DNA from: Arthrobacter wenxiniae | GTDB taxonomy: Bacteria > Actinomycetota > Actinomycetes > Actinomycetales > Micrococcaceae | NCBI RefSeq assembly: GCF_013376105.1 | Contig: NZ_JAAMFM010000001.1 | Span: 248,001 to 312,000, forward strand | Length of the DNA: 64,000 nucleotides | Reading direction: 5' to 3' | Shown: one piece after another, positions 2,850 to 39,693 of the stretch | Layout of the letters: each line of letters starts with the position of its first letter | How positions within the stretch are numbered: position 1 is the stretch's first letter | Program-made: the position numbers and the translations under genes | The notes under the pieces: generated by a model | Database searches by the model: none | What the model saw: the letters and a program-made list of their open reading frames with translations, nothing else | Told to the model about the DNA's origin: nothing

Positions 2850-3863
2850 TTAGTTGTAGAGGTCCGGCTTCGCGGCAAGGACGACGGCGGTCTTCGCGCC
2901 GGTCTTCTGCGCCTCGACTCCCGCTTCACAACAGGCGGAGGTGGCGTAGCCGTCCCAGGCGGACGGCCCTCCGATTTCCCCGCGCAGGGCGGCGTCAACC
3001 CAGGCCTGGACCTCCACGTCATAGGCGGTGCCGAAGCGCTCCTCGAAGCCGGGGGTGATCCGCCCGCCCCAGCGGCCCTGCGTGCGGACGTACGGGCCGC
3101 CGTCGTTCCCGATGTTCACGATCCCGTCCTCGAAGGACGCCTGGGTTGCCACTTCGTAGCCAAAGCGGGCGTTGACGTAGATTTCAACGTCCGCCAGCAC
3201 GCCGGATTCGGTTTCAATCAGCACGTGCTGGGGATCGTGCTGGCCCTCGGGGGCGTTGCGGGTGGGCTTGCCCAGGCGCACCTGGACGGAGGCGATTTCC
3301 TCGCCGGTGAAGAAGCGGATCGCGTCAAACTCGTGCACCACGGAGTCGTTGATGAGCATCTCGTTGGTGAAGCCTGCCGGGGTGTCCGGGTTGCGGTGCT
3401 GGTGGTGGAGCACCAGCAGCTCGCCCAGGCCGCCCTCGGTGATGATTCCGCGGAGGGCGGCGTATTCGGCGTCGAAGCGGCGCATGAAGCCCACCTGGAT
3501 GCGCTTGCGGCCCAGCTTGGCCTCGGCCTGGACCACCGTCAGGGCGCTCGCGGCGTCCGGGGTCAGCGGCTTTTCGCACAGGATGGGGATGTCCCGCGCG
3601 AGAGCCTTGAACAGGATGTCCTCGTGCAGGAAGCCGGGGGTGGCGATCAGCACGGCGTTGACGTCGCCGTTGTCCAAGGCCTCCTCGGCACTGGCCAGGG
3701 CCACCGCGCCCGGGATGCCCTTGATGGCGGCCTCGGCCCGGGCCAGGTCGATGTCGACGACGGCGGCCACCTCGGCCCCGCTGATGCGGTGATGCAGGCG
3801 GTTGATGTGGTCCGCGCCCATGCGTCCGGCGCCGATGACGGCGACGCGAAGTTTTTCAGTCAT
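2850..3863 (-). CDS. iolG: inositol 2-dehydrogenase, Gfo/Idh/MocA family
   Basis: NAD-dependent dehydrogenase of 337 residues that should oxidise myo-inositol to scyllo-inosose, the first step of the pathway. The start is ATG at 3863 (MTEKLRVAVIGAGRMGADH); an open frame continues upstream but is translated there in the wrong compositional frame of the neighbouring gene. The nucleotide-binding GAGRMG is at residues 11-16, CEKPLTPDAA near 95 carries the conserved EKP lysine, and GFMRRFDAEY and NDSVVHEFDAIRFF match the substrate-site helices of the family. It lies 13 bp behind the iolE-like gene in the iol operon. Confidence 0.85.
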   Translation of the reverse strand: MTEKLRVAVIGAGRMGADHINRLHHRISGAEVAAVVDIDLARAEAAIKGIPGAVALASAEEALDNGDVNAVLIATPGFLHEDILFKALARDIPILCEKPLTPDAASALTVVQAEAKLGRKRIQVGFMRRFDAEYAALRGIITEGGLGELLVLHHQHRNPDTPAGFTNEMLINDSVVHEFDAIRFFTGEEIASVQVRLGKPTRNAPEGQHDPQHVLIETESGVLADVEIYVNARFGYEVATQASFEDGIVNIGNDGGPYVRTQGRWGGRITPGFEERFGTAYDVEVQAWVDAALRGEIGGPSAWDGYATSACCEAGVEAQKTGAKTAVVLAAKPDLYN

Positions 3864-3876
3864 GACGTGCTTCTTT

Positions 3877-4788
3877 CTAGTTGACGGTGGTGCGTGAGCC
3901 GCAGCCGAGCAGGTAGTTGCGGGTGCGCTTGGCGATCGGCATCGGGACGTCGAAGGCCACGGGGTACATGTCCTGCTCCACAATGCCAAAGATCGGCCGG
4001 CCAAGACCCTCCACTGCCTCTACGACGGCGCGCAGGTCCGGCAGGCCGTTCGGCGGCTCCACCATGACGCCGGCCAGGTTGGCCGCGGCCCAGGTCATGT
4101 TCTCGGCGTTGACGCGGGCCAGCACCTCGGGGTTGATCTGCTTCAGGTGCAGGTAGCCGATGCGTTCGGGGTATTTGCCGATGAGTTCCAGCGAACTGGC
4201 CCCGCAGTATTCGGCGTGCCCGGTGTCCAGGCACAGGTTCAGCAGTGCGGGGTCGGTCTCGGCGAGGAGGTGTTCGATGTCGGCCTGGGCGCCCACGTGG
4301 GAGTCGGCGTGCGAGTGGAACTGCTGCTTGAGCCCAAAGTCCTTGAGCAGGACCTCCCCCAACCTGTTGTGGCCCTCGAACAGGTCCGTCCACTGCCGCG
4401 CGTCCAGGGTGCCGCTTTCCACGGCCTCCCCGGTGACGTCGTCGCGCCACATGGCGGGAATGACGACGACGTTCTCCCCGCCCATGGCGGCCGTCAGTTC
4501 GGCCACCTTCCGGGCCGGCTCCCAGGCCTCCTCCCACTGGGCTGCGCCGCGGTGGAAGGCGGTGAAAACCGTCCCGGCAGTGACCTGCAGGTCCCGGTCC
4601 TTGAGCTCTTGGGCCAGGCGCGTTGGATCGTTGGGCAGGTACCCGTAAGGGCCCAGCTCAATCCATTTGTACCCTGACTCCGCCACCTCGTCGAGGAAGC
4701 GCTCCCAGGGGGTCTGCTTGGGATCGTCGGCAAACCAGACGCCCCAGGAGTCCGGCGCGGTGCCGATGATCAGCTTGTTTTCAGTCAT
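3877..4788 (-). CDS. TIM-barrel isomerase/dehydratase, probable inosose dehydratase (IolE/IolI family)
   Basis: Xylose-isomerase-like TIM barrel of 303 residues. The N terminus reads IIGTAPDSWGVWFADDPKQ, a form found in proteins of actinobacterial and proteobacterial inositol clusters annotated as inosose dehydratase or inosose isomerase. Metal-ligand-like segments include CLDTGHAEYCG, YLHLKQINP and FGIVEQDMYP. ATG at 4788 follows a GGAAAG ribosome site. Between this gene and iolA upstream lies a 163-bp gap (4789-4951) with short GC-rich inverted repeats but no gene. Dehydratase is the preferred reading because the pathway needs one between IolG and IolD and this is the better candidate of the two TIM-barrel genes. 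Confidence 0.72.
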   Translation of the reverse strand: MTENKLIIGTAPDSWGVWFADDPKQTPWERFLDEVAESGYKWIELGPYGYLPNDPTRLAQELKDRDLQVTAGTVFTAFHRGAAQWEEAWEPARKVAELTAAMGGENVVVIPAMWRDDVTGEAVESGTLDARQWTDLFEGHNRLGEVLLKDFGLKQQFHSHADSHVGAQADIEHLLAETDPALLNLCLDTGHAEYCGASSLELIGKYPERIGYLHLKQINPEVLARVNAENMTWAAANLAGVMVEPPNGLPDLRAVVEAVEGLGRPIFGIVEQDMYPVAFDVPMPIAKRTRNYLLGCGSRTTVN

Positions 4789-4951
4789 GAGGTTTCTTTC
4801 CGGGTCTCAAGGAAGCGGTCGGGATCGACCACCGGCGGCGGAGTCGGTGTTGCCGAAGGCGACGTCAAGGAGGCCTGAGGCCGCCAGCGGCCGATGGCCG
4901 GGAAGTCGCCGGGGGAATGCCGGCGCCGCCTGCGGGGCTGGACCACCGGGG

Positions 4952-30759: not shown

Positions 30760-32754
30760 GTGACGTCTTGGCTCGAGGCTGTGCCCGCGTTCGCCGTGGC
30801 ACTGCTGCTCCTTGCCGTGCCCGGTGTCGCCGTGATGCTCGCGCTGCGCATCCGCGGCCTGGCGGCACTGTGCCTCACGCCGGCAGTGTCCGTTTCGGTC
30901 GTGTCCGCCAGCGCGGTGGTGGCCCCGCTCCTCCACCTGCCGTGGGGCTGGCCGGTGCTGCTGCTGGGCACGGCCGTCGCGGCGGCGGCCGCCTGGCTGG
31001 CCCGCCGCTTCATCCCCGCCCTGCAGGCCGCGGGACCGGCGGCCCCGCACCGGCGCCACGCGACCCGCGGGATAACGCCCGCAGCCGTCACGGGCGTCCT
31101 CACGGCCCTCGCCGTGACGGTCGTGTTCCTCGTCGTGGTCTCGCCCAGCCCCGAACAGTTCACGCAGGGCTACGATTCCGTGTTCCACCTGAATGCGACC
31201 GAATACGCAGTCCAGACCAGGAATGCTTCCTCCTTTTCCATCTCGGGCTTCATCCTGCCGTCAGGCAAGTCGGTGTTTTACCCGGCTGCGTGGCACGGGC
31301 TGGCGAGCCTGCTGGTGATCCTGACCGGCATCAGCATCCCCGCGGCCATGAATGTCCTCACGCTGGCGGTGGCGGGGCTGGTGTGGCCGTTGTCCTGCGT
31401 GTTCTTTGCCCGCACGCTGTTTGGGGAAAAGCGCACGGTGCTGCTGGCGGCCGGCGCCCTGTCCGCAGCCTTTCCGGCGTTCCCCTACCTGCTCCTGCAA
31501 TACGGCTCCGCCTACCCCAACCTGCTCTCCAACGCGATGGTTCCCGCCGGCGCGGCCCTGGTGCTGCTGATCATCCGCCCGCCCGCACGCCCGCCGCTGG
31601 AGCCGGCCATGGCCCTGGCGATGGTCGTGCTGTTCCTGCCCGGGACCGCCATGGCCCAGCCCAACGGCGTCTTCAGCATCCTGCTGGTCCTGACCCCGCT
31701 GCTGGCCCATCGCGTCTACGTGTGGCTGCGGACCGGGTTTGCGCTGAGCCGGCGCAGGGGGTGGCTCCGGGGCGGCGTGGTGCTGGCGGCCGCCGGCGCC
31801 GTGGCCGGCATCCTCCTTTCGCTGCCGCAGTTTCGAAGCCTGTTCAACTACACCAGCCCGGCCTTCCTGCCGTTTCCGCTGGCGTTCCTGCGCAACCTGA
31901 CCCAGGCGCCGGACCCCATCTGGTTCCCGGCCGCCGCCCTGACGCTGCTCGCACTGGCCGGTGCGTGGGCCGCCGCCCGAAGGCGCGGACTGCGCTGGCT
32001 TCCGGCGTCGCTGTTGCTGGTCAGCTTCACCTACCCGCTGGCCGCCGGGACCAACCTGCCCGTGGCCAATGTGGTCATGGCGCCCTGGTGGGACAACCCC
32101 GAACGCATCGCGGCCCTCATGCCGCTGGTCGCGGTCCCGCTGGCCGCCCTCGGGCTGGCCGGCCTGGTGGGCTGGCTCCGGACCAGGTTCCCCACGTCCC
32201 GCCTGGTCTCCACACGCAGGGGAACGGCGACGGCGGCAGCCGTCCTCGCCGTCGTCCTCGCCTTCTCAAACCCCGGCTTCTGGCAGATGGCCGGCGCCGT
32301 GGGGCAGATGTACAGCGTGCCGGCCAAGCCGGACAGCCTGGCCCAGGTGGACGCGCAGGAACTGGCGCTGATCCACCGGCTCGACTCGCTCACCACGGCC
32401 CGTGACGTCATTGCCAACAACCCGTACAACGGCTCAGCGCTGGCCATGGCGCTGGCGGGGCGGCACATGCTGTTCCCGTACAGTTCCCAAGGCGACCTCA
32501 CCGCGGACCAGTACACGCTGCGTTTCTGGCTCAACCGGGTGGGCAGCGACCAGGCCGTGTGCGCCGCCGCCAAGCGGCTGGGCGTGACGTACCTCTTGGA
32601 CTTTGGCACCGACTACATCCCGGCCTTCAACAATCCCAGGTCGCTGTATCCGGGCGTGACGCTGGCCGCCGGCACGGAGGGCTTCACGCTGGTGGCACGG
32701 GAGGGGCATGCCTCCCTGTACAAGCTCACGCTGTGCGCAGGGGTGCCGCAGTAG
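30760..32754 (+). CDS. polytopic membrane protein, DUF6541-like
   Basis: Integral membrane protein of 664 residues with roughly 12-14 hydrophobic segments, beginning VPAFAVALLLLAVPGVAVML. The large first external loop contains YDSVFHLNATEYAVQTRNAS and LPSGKSVFYPAAWHGL, a pattern I recognise from DUF6541 proteins, which look like GT-C glycosyltransferases (acidic residue in the first loop, helices, soluble C-terminal domain from about 540). A role in cell-wall or surface glycan assembly is plausible but not shown. The start is GTG at 30760. It stands alone, with the XRE-TPR regulator 170 bp downstream. Confidence 0.7.
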   Translation: MTSWLEAVPAFAVALLLLAVPGVAVMLALRIRGLAALCLTPAVSVSVVSASAVVAPLLHLPWGWPVLLLGTAVAAAAAWLARRFIPALQAAGPAAPHRRHATRGITPAAVTGVLTALAVTVVFLVVVSPSPEQFTQGYDSVFHLNATEYAVQTRNASSFSISGFILPSGKSVFYPAAWHGLASLLVILTGISIPAAMNVLTLAVAGLVWPLSCVFFARTLFGEKRTVLLAAGALSAAFPAFPYLLLQYGSAYPNLLSNAMVPAGAALVLLIIRPPARPPLEPAMALAMVVLFLPGTAMAQPNGVFSILLVLTPLLAHRVYVWLRTGFALSRRRGWLRGGVVLAAAGAVAGILLSLPQFRSLFNYTSPAFLPFPLAFLRNLTQAPDPIWFPAAALTLLALAGAWAAARRRGLRWLPASLLLVSFTYPLAAGTNLPVANVVMAPWWDNPERIAALMPLVAVPLAALGLAGLVGWLRTRFPTSRLVSTRRGTATAAAVLAVVLAFSNPGFWQMAGAVGQMYSVPAKPDSLAQVDAQELALIHRLDSLTTARDVIANNPYNGSALAMALAGRHMLFPYSSQGDLTADQYTLRFWLNRVGSDQAVCAAAKRLGVTYLLDFGTDYIPAFNNPRSLYPGVTLAAGTEGFTLVAREGHASLYKLTLCAGVPQ

Positions 32755-32924
32755 CCCGGCGCGCGGCTGCCAAGTGCCGTGCCGGACCACGTCCGCGACG
32801 AGTCCAGTTGACAAGATCTGTAGATAGTTATCACAAACTAGTCATAGCGCTTAGAGTTGTGACTGCGGATTCTTTTCCGCATGGTGGTTTGACCAGCGCG
32901 GCAGTTTGCAGGAGGAGTGGGACA

Positions 32925-34181
32925 GTGGGCAGCAGTTTTGGCGATCGACTTCGGCAGGAACGCCTGGCGCGGAGCCTCACCCAGGCGGAACTGGGCGGGG
33001 CGCTGTACTCGGCCAGCTACATCTCGCTGCTCGAAAACGGCCGGCGTGAACCCACCGTTGAAATAATCAAGCAGCTCTCCCGCCAGCTGCAGCTCGCGCC
33101 GCACTCCATTGAGGAGTGGGTGCAGCCCATCTCCTCGGAGGAAAGCGGCTACCTCATCGCCTCGCTCTACGCCCGGCAGTGCTGGGACACCCGCGACTAC
33201 GTGGGAGCCGCCCAAAGCGCAGGGTCCGCGGCGGAAAAGGCCATTGCCAGCCACGATTCGGTCACCTGGTGGAACATGGCCTACCTGCAGGCCAACTCGC
33301 TGCTGCGCTGCGGCGGCCAGGCGGAGGCGCTGGACGTGCTGAAGAAGCTGCTCAACCACGCCCTGACCGCGGACAGCGACGCCCTGACGCTGCGCACCCG
33401 CCAAACCATGGCCGCCGCGCTGCTGAGCATGGGCCGCCTGCCCGAGGCCATCGAGGAAGCCACGCTCGCCATCGAGATCGGTTCCGGGGACACCGACGAG
33501 GAATACGCCGCCTACCTCATCGCCCTGCAAACACTCGTGGGGGCGCTCGCCGAGGCAGGCGACCTCGAGGGGGCGTGGCAGCACTGCCTGACCTTGGCCG
33601 ACGCGGTCACCGATTCCACCCCGACCCAGCTGGCCGGGGAGATCCACTGGGTGATCGGCAACGTGGCGTTCATCCGGCAGGACGTGAACACCGGCCTGTT
33701 CCACCACGCCCAGGCCGGCCGGCTGCTCTCGCCCACCCAGGACCTGTCCCGCTGGGCCCAGTTCAACAAGGCCACGGCGTGGGTGCGCCTGGCCGCAGGC
33801 GTGGTGGAGCCGGCCACGCTGGAAGCGATCGAGCGCAGCGAACTGGCGCACTCCGTGGTGGGCGCCACCCGCACCGAGGCCTTGGAGGTCTCGCTGCTGC
33901 GCGCCCGCTGGCTCTACCTCAACGGCGACATGCCCGCGGCCCTGGCCCTGCTGGAAAGCATCGGCTCCGAGCGCGAAGCCCTCGCCACCCACATCGCCGG
34001 CGACACCGCCCTGCTGCTGGGCAAGGTGCTCAAGGCCCAGGGCCGCATGGAGGACGCCCTGGCCGCGTTCAATGAGGCGAAGTCCATGTTCACCGACGCC
34101 GGTGCCACCGAGCGGATTTCCCAGGCCATGGAGAGCATTGTGGAGATCGAGTCGCTGCGCCGTTCGGGAACCCGGACCTAG
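32925..34181 (+). CDS. XRE-type helix-turn-helix regulator with TPR-like repeats
   Basis: Protein of 418 residues: N-terminal Cro/C1-type HTH (residues 3-60, FGDRLRQERLARSLTQAEL, SYISLLENGRREPT) followed by a long array of tetratricopeptide-like helical repeats, the layout of peptide- or stage-responsive regulators. The start is GTG 32925 with GGAGGAG 7 nt upstream; the much longer frame before it overlaps the membrane protein gene and is not real. The 170-bp upstream gap is AT-rich and has TTGACA at 32808-32813. Its stop is 3 bp from the end of the convergent purC, leaving no room for a terminator. Target genes unknown. Confidence 0.85.
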   Translation: MGSSFGDRLRQERLARSLTQAELGGALYSASYISLLENGRREPTVEIIKQLSRQLQLAPHSIEEWVQPISSEESGYLIASLYARQCWDTRDYVGAAQSAGSAAEKAIASHDSVTWWNMAYLQANSLLRCGGQAEALDVLKKLLNHALTADSDALTLRTRQTMAAALLSMGRLPEAIEEATLAIEIGSGDTDEEYAAYLIALQTLVGALAEAGDLEGAWQHCLTLADAVTDSTPTQLAGEIHWVIGNVAFIRQDVNTGLFHHAQAGRLLSPTQDLSRWAQFNKATAWVRLAAGVVEPATLEAIERSELAHSVVGATRTEALEVSLLRARWLYLNGDMPAALALLESIGSEREALATHIAGDTALLLGKVLKAQGRMEDALAAFNEAKSMFTDAGATERISQAMESIVEIESLRRSGTRT

Positions 34182-36783: not shown

Positions 36784-38985
36784 ATGCAAGCAACCACGCG
36801 GGCATTCCTTAGGCGCGCGGGGGCGGCCTGCGCCGCAGCTGCGATTCTGGGCGGCGGCACCTTTGCCGCAGGCGCGGCCTCCGCGGCGCCCTTCAGCGAA
36901 CCGGCGCCAACAGTTCAGTCCAGCGCCGCACCGTCCAGCGCGTCCGCACCGGCCGCCAGCGCCTCCCCGTCTGCCGCCAGTGCATCCCCGTCTGCCGGGG
37001 CGCAGCCCGCAGGGCTGGAAGCGGCGCTCAAGCGCGACCTTGGCCAGACGGTTGCCGGCTTTGAGGCCAACGGTGAGCTGGCCGCGAAGGCTGCCACCAT
37101 CGATGCCGAGGTCAAGAAGGCGGATCCCAACGCCGCCGTCTCCGTGGCCGGGGACACCATCAAGGTGGTGACCTCGGTCCCCGCCGCGGCCCATCAGGCC
37201 GCCAAACAGGCCGGCGTCAACACCAAGGTCTCCATCGCCCCCGTCCAGGCGGCCCCCGCCTACATGGTTGGCGTGAAAAAGAAGGACGCCGACGCGAAAA
37301 CCCTGCTTGCCGCGTACGTCCACGCCTTTGGCGCCAGGAACCTGCAGTCCATCATGGTCAACGCGGCCGGCCAACACGTCATCCGCACCAGCGACCCCGC
37401 CAACGGATCCACCACCCCGTCGTTCCGGTCCTTTGCGGCGGCGTCACAGGAGTCCGTGACGGACTTTGCGGCGAAATACAACAACGTGGTGGTCGAGGCG
37501 GCAGACGGGCCGGCCGCCACCTATGGAGGCGACGTGGTGAACGGTCAGGGCTACGCCAGCCAGGTCTCCGGCAACCACTACGAAACGTGTTCGATCGGCT
37601 GGAACGGCTTTGACAGGTCAGGGCGGCCCGCCGTCATTTCCGCCGGGCACTGCACCGCGGACGGGGCCCTGAAGGACCCAATGCTCACCGACCCGGTGCA
37701 TGACGCTGCCGGCAGGCCGGCAGGTCCCGGCATCGCGCTGCTGGGCAGCCTGGGCACCTTTGGCTTCTCCCAGTTCGGCGGACCCGGCAACAGCCCTGTC
37801 ACCGGGCTCACGCCGACCTCCGACCCCGGTGACCTCGGCAACATTGGAACCGACGTTTCCGTCATTGACAACATCGCCCCGGGCCTGACTCAGCTTCCCC
37901 TCGCCACACACTGGACCGATCCGTCCAACCTTCCCGCAACGGCCACCAGGGTCACCGGCGTGTCCACTGCCGTGGTGGGCGCTGAAATTTGCAAGTCGGC
38001 GCGCACCACCGGATGGACCTGCGGCACCGTCACGGAGGTCGGCATCTTCCTGGTCGGCGGCGTCCCGGACCCCACGAACCCCGCTGATGTTCGGGCCGTG
38101 TGGGGCTTCGGTTCAGACAACATGGTAAGCGGCCCCGGCGATTCCGGCGGCGCCGTCATCTCCGGCACCACAGCAGTCGGCATGATCAGCGCAGGGGGCA
38201 CGGACGGGGATGGGACGGCCTGGACCTTCAGCACGGACCTGGTGGACGCACTGGCCCACACGAACGGCTACACGGTCAAGATCTTCCTCAATTCCCCCAC
38301 GCTGACGAGCCCCGCCAACAACGGCACCGTCCACCGCTCAGCCCCCATCACGGGAAAGGTTGCCGGCGCCCCTGCGGGAACCACCGTGACCGCCACCGTG
38401 GGCGGGCGAACCAGCACGGTTCCGGTTGGCGCCAACGGCACATGGGCCATCAAGGCCCCCACCACGTTCGGCAGCTTCACGCTCACGGCCCGGGCCGGGA
38501 GCGGATTCAGCACCTCGGCGAAGGCCACGTTCAAGGTCACTGTCATCAGGCAGACGCTGGCCGCACCGGCCTTCACGTCCCCGGCACCGAACGGCTCGGC
38601 AACTGCCCCTGTCACGGCCGTCTCAGGCACCGGTAAGCCCGGAGCCACGGTGGTGCTGAGCGGCAGCGTCACCGGCACGGCCGTTGTGGGCGCCGGCGGC
38701 CGCTGGTCCGTGGCGGCGTCCCCGGCACTGACCGCGGGGCGCTATTCGGTCACGGCCAGGCAGACCCTGGCGGACTGGAACGACTCCGCCGCGGCGACCG
38801 CCGCGTTCAGGGTTGCCCTTCCGGCCCCGCCGGCGGCAGCCGCACTCCTGGGCCACGTCGATGGCGGCGGCCTGGCGGAAACCGGCGTCCCGGGCACGGC
38901 GGCCACAGTCGGTGCTGCCGGCGCACTGCTGCTGCTGGCCGGCGCGGCATTCCTGTTGTTTGGCCGCCGCAAGAGGGCACACTGA
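36784..38985 (+). CDS. secreted S1-family serine protease with LAETG wall anchor
   Basis: Chymotrypsin-fold extracellular protease of 733 residues. A signal peptide (RRAGAACAAAAILGGGTFAAG, cut near ASA-AP) is followed by an Ala/Ser/Pro linker, a pro-region, then the catalytic domain: His289 in SAGHCTAD, Asp357 in GTDVSVID, Ser454 in GDSGGAVISG, with cysteines nearby as in alpha-lytic/streptogrisin enzymes. Two Ig-like domains (from LTSPANNGTVHRSAP and FTSPAPNGSATAPV) come next. The C terminus is a sorting signal: LAETG (697-701), hydrophobic helix and RRKRAH, the LAxTG form used by class E sortases. ATG at 36784 follows AAGGGG. Neighbour at 39064 may be its partner. Confidence 0.88.
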   Translation: MQATTRAFLRRAGAACAAAAILGGGTFAAGAASAAPFSEPAPTVQSSAAPSSASAPAASASPSAASASPSAGAQPAGLEAALKRDLGQTVAGFEANGELAAKAATIDAEVKKADPNAAVSVAGDTIKVVTSVPAAAHQAAKQAGVNTKVSIAPVQAAPAYMVGVKKKDADAKTLLAAYVHAFGARNLQSIMVNAAGQHVIRTSDPANGSTTPSFRSFAAASQESVTDFAAKYNNVVVEAADGPAATYGGDVVNGQGYASQVSGNHYETCSIGWNGFDRSGRPAVISAGHCTADGALKDPMLTDPVHDAAGRPAGPGIALLGSLGTFGFSQFGGPGNSPVTGLTPTSDPGDLGNIGTDVSVIDNIAPGLTQLPLATHWTDPSNLPATATRVTGVSTAVVGAEICKSARTTGWTCGTVTEVGIFLVGGVPDPTNPADVRAVWGFGSDNMVSGPGDSGGAVISGTTAVGMISAGGTDGDGTAWTFSTDLVDALAHTNGYTVKIFLNSPTLTSPANNGTVHRSAPITGKVAGAPAGTTVTATVGGRTSTVPVGANGTWAIKAPTTFGSFTLTARAGSGFSTSAKATFKVTVIRQTLAAPAFTSPAPNGSATAPVTAVSGTGKPGATVVLSGSVTGTAVVGAGGRWSVAASPALTAGRYSVTARQTLADWNDSAAATAAFRVALPAPPAAAALLGHVDGGGLAETGVPGTAATVGAAGALLLLAGAAFLLFGRRKRAH

Positions 38986-39022
38986 CAGCACCACCTTGCA
39001 GCCTGAAAGCTGCAGCGGGCGA

Positions 39023-39054
39023 ATTGTTCAACGGCTTGATTGTTCAACGGCTTG
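39023..39054 (+). repeat. perfect 16-bp tandem duplication
   Basis: ATTGTTCAACGGCTTG occurs twice head to tail (39023-39038, 39039-39054) in the 78-bp gap between the protease and the lipoprotein gene, ending just before the lipoprotein's GGAGG ribosome site. Confidence 0.9.
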
Positions 39055-39063
39055 GAGGATGGG

Positions 39064-39693
39064 ATGAACGGCAGGAAGATCGCATTGGTCATCGCCGCCG
39101 CCACCATGACAGGTGCGCTGGGCATGAGCGGATGCGTGCCGGACCGGTCCCCGGGCACCCCTCCGGCGGCAACGCCGTCGGGCGGACCGCCACCGGGCGG
39201 GTCCACACAGACCGCCCGGCAGTCCACCGATTTGCTCAAGCTCAACGACACGCTGAAATCGAAGCTCGGCAGCGCCTATGCCGACTCCTGGATCGAAGGC
39301 GGCCGGCTGCACGTGGCGGTCACCACCAAGGAGGCGAAAGAGGTTGTCTCCAGGACCGGCGCCGTGCCGAAACTGGTCGCCTTTGACGCCGTACAGCTGG
39401 CGGCCGCGGTGCGGGCCGTCGCCGCCTGGCAGGCATCGCTGCCGCCGGAACAGGCCGCCTCGATCCACAGGATCATCAGCGACGGACGCACCGGCACGGT
39501 CACCATCTACGTGGCCGCCGCACACATGGACGCCATTTCCGCCGCCGCGGCGAAGGCCGCCCCCGCCGGAAAGGTCCCCCTGGCCGTCAAGCTTTCGCCG
39601 GGACTGGCCACACCCTTCCAGGCAGGTCCGTCAAGTGGTCACCAGCCGCCCGGCCCGCCGCACCGCCAGGGAGCGCAGATGTCGCTAGGATGA
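39064..39693 (+). CDS. lipoprotein resembling a free-standing alpha-lytic-type protease prodomain
   Basis: Secreted lipoprotein of 209 residues: signal peptide ending LGMSGC with the lipidated Cys24, a Pro/Gly-rich linker, then a folded part of about 120 residues. The stretch LKSKLGSAYADSWIEGGRLH followed by VAVTTKEA and RTGAVPKLVAFDAVQLAAAV looks like the prodomain of alpha-lytic/streptogrisin proteases, which folds and inhibits the enzyme; a second related half follows (HRIISDGRTGTVTIYVAA). No protease domain is attached. ATG 39064 has GGAGG 5 nt upstream. Being next to a wall-anchored protease of that class, it may act in trans as foldase or inhibitor. The resemblance is by eye and needs a profile search. 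Confidence 0.7.
   Translation: MNGRKIALVIAAATMTGALGMSGCVPDRSPGTPPAATPSGGPPPGGSTQTARQSTDLLKLNDTLKSKLGSAYADSWIEGGRLHVAVTTKEAKEVVSRTGAVPKLVAFDAVQLAAAVRAVAAWQASLPPEQAASIHRIISDGRTGTVTIYVAAAHMDAISAAAAKAAPAGKVPLAVKLSPGLATPFQAGPSSGHQPPGPPHRQGAQMSLG
39686..39691 (+). promoter_or_regulatory. -10 box TAGGAT of leaderless asparaginase gene
   Basis: TAGGAT, six bases, then ATG 39698; the hexamer lies inside the last codons of the lipoprotein gene. Confidence 0.6.

Follow-up and report, generated by a model that had tools for sequence, protein, structure and literature searches.

Why would a protease that already carries a pro-region of its own be followed, in the next gene, by a lipoprotein that resembles the prodomain of its own enzyme class? 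This question is raised by a locus of Arthrobacter wenxiniae on a stretch of 64,000 nucleotides (contig NZ_JAAMFM010000001.1, positions 248,001 to 312,000; hereafter the window), in which a gene for a predicted wall-anchored serine protease of the S1 class (36784-38985) is followed by a gene for a lipoprotein (39064-39693). Both open reading frames (ORFs) were confirmed on the + strand at the coordinates of a preliminary description of the window, which had suggested that the lipoprotein could be a prodomain working in trans. From our analysis, the lipoprotein is probably (at a rough probability of 0.6) a separately encoded, membrane-tethered prodomain that acts in trans on the protease encoded upstream, as an inhibitor and perhaps also as a folding helper.

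The likeness to alpha-lytic/streptogrisin prodomains had been noticed by eye, and a search of 39064-39693 with the Pfam prodomain model PF02983 had been proposed to check it. That search was negative for the window lipoprotein at E ≤ 10 and for all 18 members of its family at E ≤ 1 (within the HMMER filters), and scans of the lipoprotein with the Pfam and NCBIfam collections returned nothing relevant, only family profiles being informative. We then compared a profile of the lipoprotein family with 177,635 PDB sequences, using 18 of 20 copies (the alignment A1; the copy of genome G001, near-identical to that of G022, and the copy of G005, with ambiguous bases, were left out). The best match, at E 1.6e-4, was the PRO region of alpha-lytic protease (2pro and two further entries), with profile positions 61-178 aligned to positions 39-161 of the 166 of the chain; the next, at E 5.4e-3, was an engineered repeat protein. 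To assemble a canonical prodomain set, we searched 197 genomes of the host's class for PF02983 matches and took the 30 best loci, of which 29 were aligned (L086, with no recognisable end, was left out). The lipoprotein profile matched this set with an hhalign score of 95.7 (E 1.8e-15, 120 columns), against a best score of 19.8 in 100 column-shuffled lipoprotein alignments, and the match spans both lobes and the C-terminal tail and stops at the end of the canonical propeptide. In the reverse test, a hidden Markov model (HMM) of the lipoprotein recognised 28 of the 29 canonical prodomains supplied. The profile comparisons thereby bear out the proposed resemblance and confirm the lipoprotein, at the level of sequence, as a homologue of alpha-lytic/streptogrisin prodomains beyond chance, though below Pfam detection; an absence of prodomain similarity by profile or structure, named beforehand as fatal to the idea, was not what we found.

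What sets the lipoprotein apart from the prodomain class is that it is encoded by a separate gene 3' of the protease and is not covalently N-terminal to an S1 catalytic domain. When the lipoprotein HMM was run over 396 genomes sampled from the phylum, 14 matches were obtained outside the window genome, all 14 in ORFs with the GHC and GDSG motifs, and 11 of them overlap PF02983 matches when coordinates are compared. Over 376 genomes of the order there were 16 matches outside the host's family; 15 were examined as loci (the 16th, a second match in G1194, was given no locus), and 12 of these lay in ORFs with S1 motifs while the other three were in other lipoproteins and confined to profile positions 1-72. 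Within these phylum and order samples the free-standing form was seen only in the window's own family; the genome searches scored only the best candidates per genome (8 or 9 for the lipoprotein, 6 for the protease), and weak matches may be missed.

We then analysed how closely the two genes are linked. A first scan of named genomes with the single lipoprotein gave no loci, and a scan with the alignment gave 17, of which all except L065 were aligned with the window copy (A2). The named genomes are in many cases the same strains; 14 of their 17 loci have a protease directly upstream, two lie at contig ends, and L065, from Arthrobacter sp. ATA002, is broken. Among 98 relatives, 19 genomes had strong lipoprotein matches (20 copies, E ≤ 1.9e-15) and 25 matched the protease, G006 in the immunoglobulin (Ig)-like part alone. 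Among 395 genomes of the family, the lipoprotein was found in 69 (E ≤ 6.3e-22, the weakest being the incomplete copy of G442), with a half-length copy in G423, and the protease, searched by its catalytic domain, in 134, including 68 of the 69 with the lipoprotein; the exception is G465, where the contig breaks off just 5' of the lipoprotein gene. The 20 copies of the relatives set and 51 of the family set make up the 71 copies examined, and 66 of these (19 and 47, respectively) lie directly 3' of a protease ORF with GHC and GDSG on the same contig, at gaps of up to about 200 nucleotides. The other five are accounted for by contig ends (G008, G465, G480), a broken protease frame (G554), and loss of the catalytic domain (G423). 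The upstream neighbour is visible for 68 copies and in none is it foreign (66 protease ORFs and two damaged protease genes), which removes the worry that the lipoprotein gene might be conserved without the protease, and the synteny proposed as a check held. G015 has two protease/lipoprotein pairs at separate places, and G423 offers a case of co-decay: its protease gene (L184, G423:C16, about 3009-4799 of the reversed locus) retains signal peptide and Ig-like repeats after loss of the catalytic domain, and only the C-terminal half of the lipoprotein is left. In essence, the protease/lipoprotein pair is a conserved unit.

The dN/dS ratio (nonsynonymous to synonymous substitution rates) was 0.10-0.49 in seven of eight hand-picked lipoprotein pairs, the eighth (G001/G022) having no synonymous change, and by this measure the lipoprotein is under purifying selection. 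On the gene content of the sampled genomes the dependence is one-way: the lipoprotein goes with the protease, and the protease is not always with the lipoprotein. Of 89 catalytic domains placed on a tree, 67 have the lipoprotein, 20 do not, and two have a remnant; the presence label needs 6 changes against 19.7 in shuffles, which would fit an old association with several losses. The tree contains long branches of uncertain placement. A divergent lipoprotein was sought in 16 fetched regions downstream of lipoprotein-less proteases (10 from genus g10, no genome of which has the lipoprotein in our sample, and six from others), and none was found there. The one weak HMM match there, in G606 (E 0.0014), was rejected by eye as the signal part of another lipoprotein. 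For G030 and G031 no protease ORF was recovered, and what could be inspected were the 1.5 kb flanks of earlier loci. As a side observation, the lipoprotein-less proteases of three genomes (L199 in G430, L202 in G340, and L203 in G456) belong to a genus otherwise with the pair and lie just upstream of what by eye appears to be a signal peptidase I gene.

A motif recurs at the C-terminus of the lipoprotein, x-G-[LPIM]-A-[TS]-P-x; in the window's genus its last residue is frequently L, F or Y, and 13 of 16 copies there stop directly after the GLATPF-type motif, 12 of these 13 in one of those three residues. In some pairs the pro-region of the protease closes with a similar motif immediately ahead of the mature N-terminus, as in G532 (DSSGPATPL, against ESSGPATPL in the lipoprotein). 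When lipoprotein tails were compared with the pro-regions of their partners, the best nine-residue matches scored 20.2 on average, against 17.1 in shuffles (67 of 71 pairs). In 36 of the 62 pairs in which the mature motif could be located the match ends 1-10 residues before it; with shuffled tails this happened in 113 of 496 cases. Two single-chain S1 proteases, L206 and L207 (in G198 and G126, of a different family of the class), were first brought in by the lipoprotein HMM, which matches their prodomains at 49.3 and 40.2 bits. Among the proteases compared from outside the family, their catalytic domains rank first against the window protease in BLAST (E 6e-20 and 1e-21, the next being 1.9e-17), with a small lead in phmmer (2.5e-14 and 7.6e-16, the next 9.3e-14), and they look like a fused counterpart of the pair. 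Descent of the pair from L206/L207 in particular is not supported because the same HMM gives the canonical prodomain L106 a higher score (54.1 bits).

The lipoprotein, a putative free-standing prodomain, has 209 residues. A signal peptide with the lipobox MSGC occupies 39064-39135 (codon of Cys24 at 39133-39135, the cysteine being invariant in 18 rows), and the family alignment places a Ser/Pro/Thr/Gly-rich linker at 39136-39231. By profile comparison, a prodomain-like domain of about 130 residues follows at 39232-39618, with two lobes and the C-terminal tail SPGLATPF, and 39619-39693 holds extra C-terminal residues of the window copy and the stop, absent from most same-genus relatives. A loose lipobox pattern recovers 67 of the 71 copies and a 68th (G532, LCGC) was recognised by eye. 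By motif the protein classes as a bacterial lipoprotein (signal peptide and lipobox cysteine), and, as had been described, it has no catalytic domain and is predicted to be lipid-anchored. A weak second match to the lipoprotein profile exists in the same genome (L189, G000:C45:14428-14616; E 7e-4); it spans positions 7-74 of the profile, for the most part signal and linker.

The protease gene (36784-38985, + strand) encodes a preproenzyme of 733 residues, of the alpha-lytic/streptogrisin type of S1, in which a signal peptide, a divergent pro-region, a catalytic domain, Ig-like repeats, and an LAETG signal follow one another. The signal peptide (36784-36888) was delimited by eye and is approximate, as is the cis pro-region (37015-37524), which ends in GPAATY before the putative mature start GGDVVNGQGY, the cleavage point being predicted. 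The catalytic domain (37525-38283) carries AGHC with H289 (37648-37650) and GPGDSGG with S454 (38143-38145); Pfam S1 models gave no match at E ≤ 0.001, and phmmer against the PDB matched S1E proteases, 2oua being the best at E 3.9e-8 and alpha-lytic protease reaching 8.7e-6, which with the GHC and GDSGG motifs places the enzyme in the S1E class. Ig-like repeats of the Big_13 or Ca_tandemer kind lie at about 38290-38820, both models scoring under their curated cut-offs, and 38872-38985 encodes the LAETG sorting signal (residues 697-701), a hydrophobic segment, and a basic tail. L[AP]xTG occurs within the last 70 residues of all 67 paired proteases, and the genome has two sortase genes (PF04203, over cut-off); with these features the protease has the hallmarks of a sortase-anchored wall protein and is predicted to be anchored as such. 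One S1 protease of the window type was found in the genome at E ≤ 1e-10, and PF02983 gave no match there over its cut-off.

The divergent pro-region and LAETG anchor that the preliminary description had reported are thus both present, the pro-region with a partial canonical match. Its N-terminal segment, with the motif RDLG, resembles canonical prodomains at an hhalign score of 43.1 (E 3.9e-6), against at most 16.5 in 100 column shuffles, and the rest, the C-terminal half, has no significant similarity to them; the profile was built from 28 of 32 rows (G082 twice, G031, and G005 were left out). Seven proteases are without the RDLG pattern, and an alignment check covering the same-genus proteases of G001 (L041), G022 (L042), G005 (L043), and G007 (L039) found the segment missing from all four, each of which has the lipoprotein. 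A simple reading of the pair as two copies of one domain was dropped, neither the lipoprotein against the cis pro-region nor the C-terminal half of the latter against canonical prodomains giving a significant comparison.

Several points weigh against a prodomain acting in trans. The protease has its own pro-region, so the need for a second prodomain is not obvious, and the direct comparison of the lipoprotein with that pro-region reached a score of only 17.5 (E 0.05). No detectable full lipoprotein exists in 66 of the 134 protease-bearing genomes of the family, so the enzyme can do without it. In G003 and G014 a whole-looking protease ORF has only a decayed lipoprotein remnant beside it (L188 of G003, 3427-3558; L187 of G014, reversed, 3469-3603), between protease and asparaginase gene and with the GLATPL tail kept. 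The lipobox was not seen in G508 and G442, the latter copy also being incomplete. The tail statistics rest on related, non-independent sequences; the window copy itself continues 24 residues beyond the usual end at GLATPF, and its best tail match lies elsewhere than in the expected place (empirical p 0.30).

Among the other explanations, the lipoprotein could be an obligate steric chaperone (a foldase) in trans, supplying the prodomain body that the cis pro-region has lost, with inhibition as a secondary effect. The division of canonical similarity, with the N-terminal segment in the cis pro-region and the rest in the lipoprotein, would suit this, as would the four proteases without even that segment (G001, G022, G005, G007), all with the lipoprotein; moreover, contacts between the pro-region C-terminus and the active site are reportedly critical for folding, to go by the title of a 1998 paper by Peters and colleagues that PMC2829044 cites. 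Nevertheless, the whole-looking proteases beside mere remnants in G003 and G014 and the empty 3' regions of the 16 inspected lipoprotein-less proteases, 10 of them from g10, speak against an obligate foldase, which we consider unlikely. An indispensable role is disfavoured because 66 of the 134 protease genomes are without a full copy, two of them with a remnant only, and a regulator is favoured over an obligate chaperone because the dependence is one-way. The weak similarity between lipoprotein and cis pro-region would also be expected if the lipoprotein were a true prodomain relative with another target, such as another secreted protease of the host or of its competitors, with the linkage reflecting shared regulation only. 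The adjacency in 66 of 71 copies, the co-decay with the catalytic domain, and the two pairs of G015 make this decidedly improbable, and no second S1 protease of the window kind was found in the genome at E ≤ 1e-10, a search that did not cover other S1 subfamilies. Decaying copies (the remnants of G003 and G014, the half copy of G423, and the incomplete one of G442) could finally suggest an evolutionary leftover, a duplicated protease minus its catalytic domain and with no present function. Such a leftover would hardly be retained in 69 of 395 family genomes and in several genera, with dN/dS below 0.5 in the seven pairs computed and the lipobox kept in 68 of 71 copies (one by eye), and we regard it as very improbable.

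If the lipoprotein is indeed a trans-acting prodomain of the neighbouring protease, a two-gene, two-anchor control of the zymogen can tentatively be proposed, at appreciably lower confidence than the assignment itself. The tethered prodomain would hold and/or fold the protease in trans and the transfer by sortase would activate it (a spatial licensing), while the divergent cis pro-region remains. In the mechanism that we consider probable, the protease would leave the Sec machinery and stay held in the membrane by its sorting signal, where the lipid-tethered prodomain on the outer membrane face would bind the catalytic domain, its C-terminal tail sitting in the active site like the cleaved end of a propeptide. 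The bound enzyme would be kept inactive, perhaps aided in its folding, until the sortase shifts it to the wall and out of the reach of the tether, where it would become active. Binding, inhibition, and release on sorting are steps that we infer from sequence.

The two genes lie in a genome of high guanine-cytosine content, whose relatives are Arthrobacter, between purD (on the - strand) and the gene of L-asparaginase II, with purC and purF close by. The protease stop and the lipoprotein start are 78 nucleotides apart, and from this spacing alone we infer an operon; a scan around the pair was uninformative, with no promoters and two terminator-like sites against 2.1 expected. Adjoining purC, an ORF at 32559-34181 is a possible regulator, with what by eye appear to be a helix-turn-helix of the XRE kind and a C-terminal part rich in repeats.

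We know of no earlier free-standing prodomain of the alpha-lytic class, of which alpha-lytic protease is the textbook case of prodomain-dependent folding. Compared with the canonical alpha-lytic/streptogrisin prodomain (PF02983 class; PDB 2pro, 3pro, and 4pro), the lipoprotein is by profile homologous over both lobes and tail, and differs in being encoded alone, predicted to be lipid-anchored, without a catalytic domain and under Pfam detection. In other protease classes, the subtilisin propeptide has a fold unrelated to the alpha-lytic-class prodomain, and Spi of Streptococcus pyogenes resembles the propeptide of the protease SpeB. Lif of Burkholderia glumae has an unrelated fold and is encoded beside the lipase gene; its client is a lipase and its host Gram-negative. 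Our literature search, with most subscription papers outside its coverage, found no free-standing S1-class prodomain. The pro region of alpha-lytic protease catalyses folding and pairs with a hairpin of the enzyme in a beta-sheet, the junction of pro region and enzyme lying across the active site, and the relevant section of that source discusses the prodomain as part of the same chain (PMC2829044). A 2008 survey of prokaryotic serine proteases, in the excerpt available, names PF02983 once, among co-existing domains (PMC2605481). Free-standing propeptide-like proteins are described for subtilisins (SUB1-ProM of Plasmodium, TgMIC5, and Pleurotus peptidase A inhibitor 1; MEROPS I9), and SUB1-ProM, whose gene lies beside subtilisin-like genes, inhibits the protease; these belong to the S8 class, the examples are eukaryotic, and a lipid anchor goes unmentioned in the excerpt concerned (PMC6993865). 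SpeB and Spi share with our pair a bacterial protease and an inhibitor gene, there on one messenger RNA, whereas SpeB is a cysteine protease and Spi is described, in the passage at hand, as intracellular in action (PMC5613712). Lif, likewise, is described as a membrane-based steric chaperone for a separate secreted enzyme (PMC3352829).

If our reading is true, no prodomain of the alpha-lytic class will, to our knowledge, have been seen free-standing before the lipoprotein, free-standing propeptide inhibitors being already known for subtilisins. As a natural and conserved prodomain in trans, it would help to show which job, folding or inhibition, survives when a prodomain is uncoupled from the chain of its protease. 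It would also give a handle on the way in which Gram-positive bacteria restrain a wall protease before it reaches its site.

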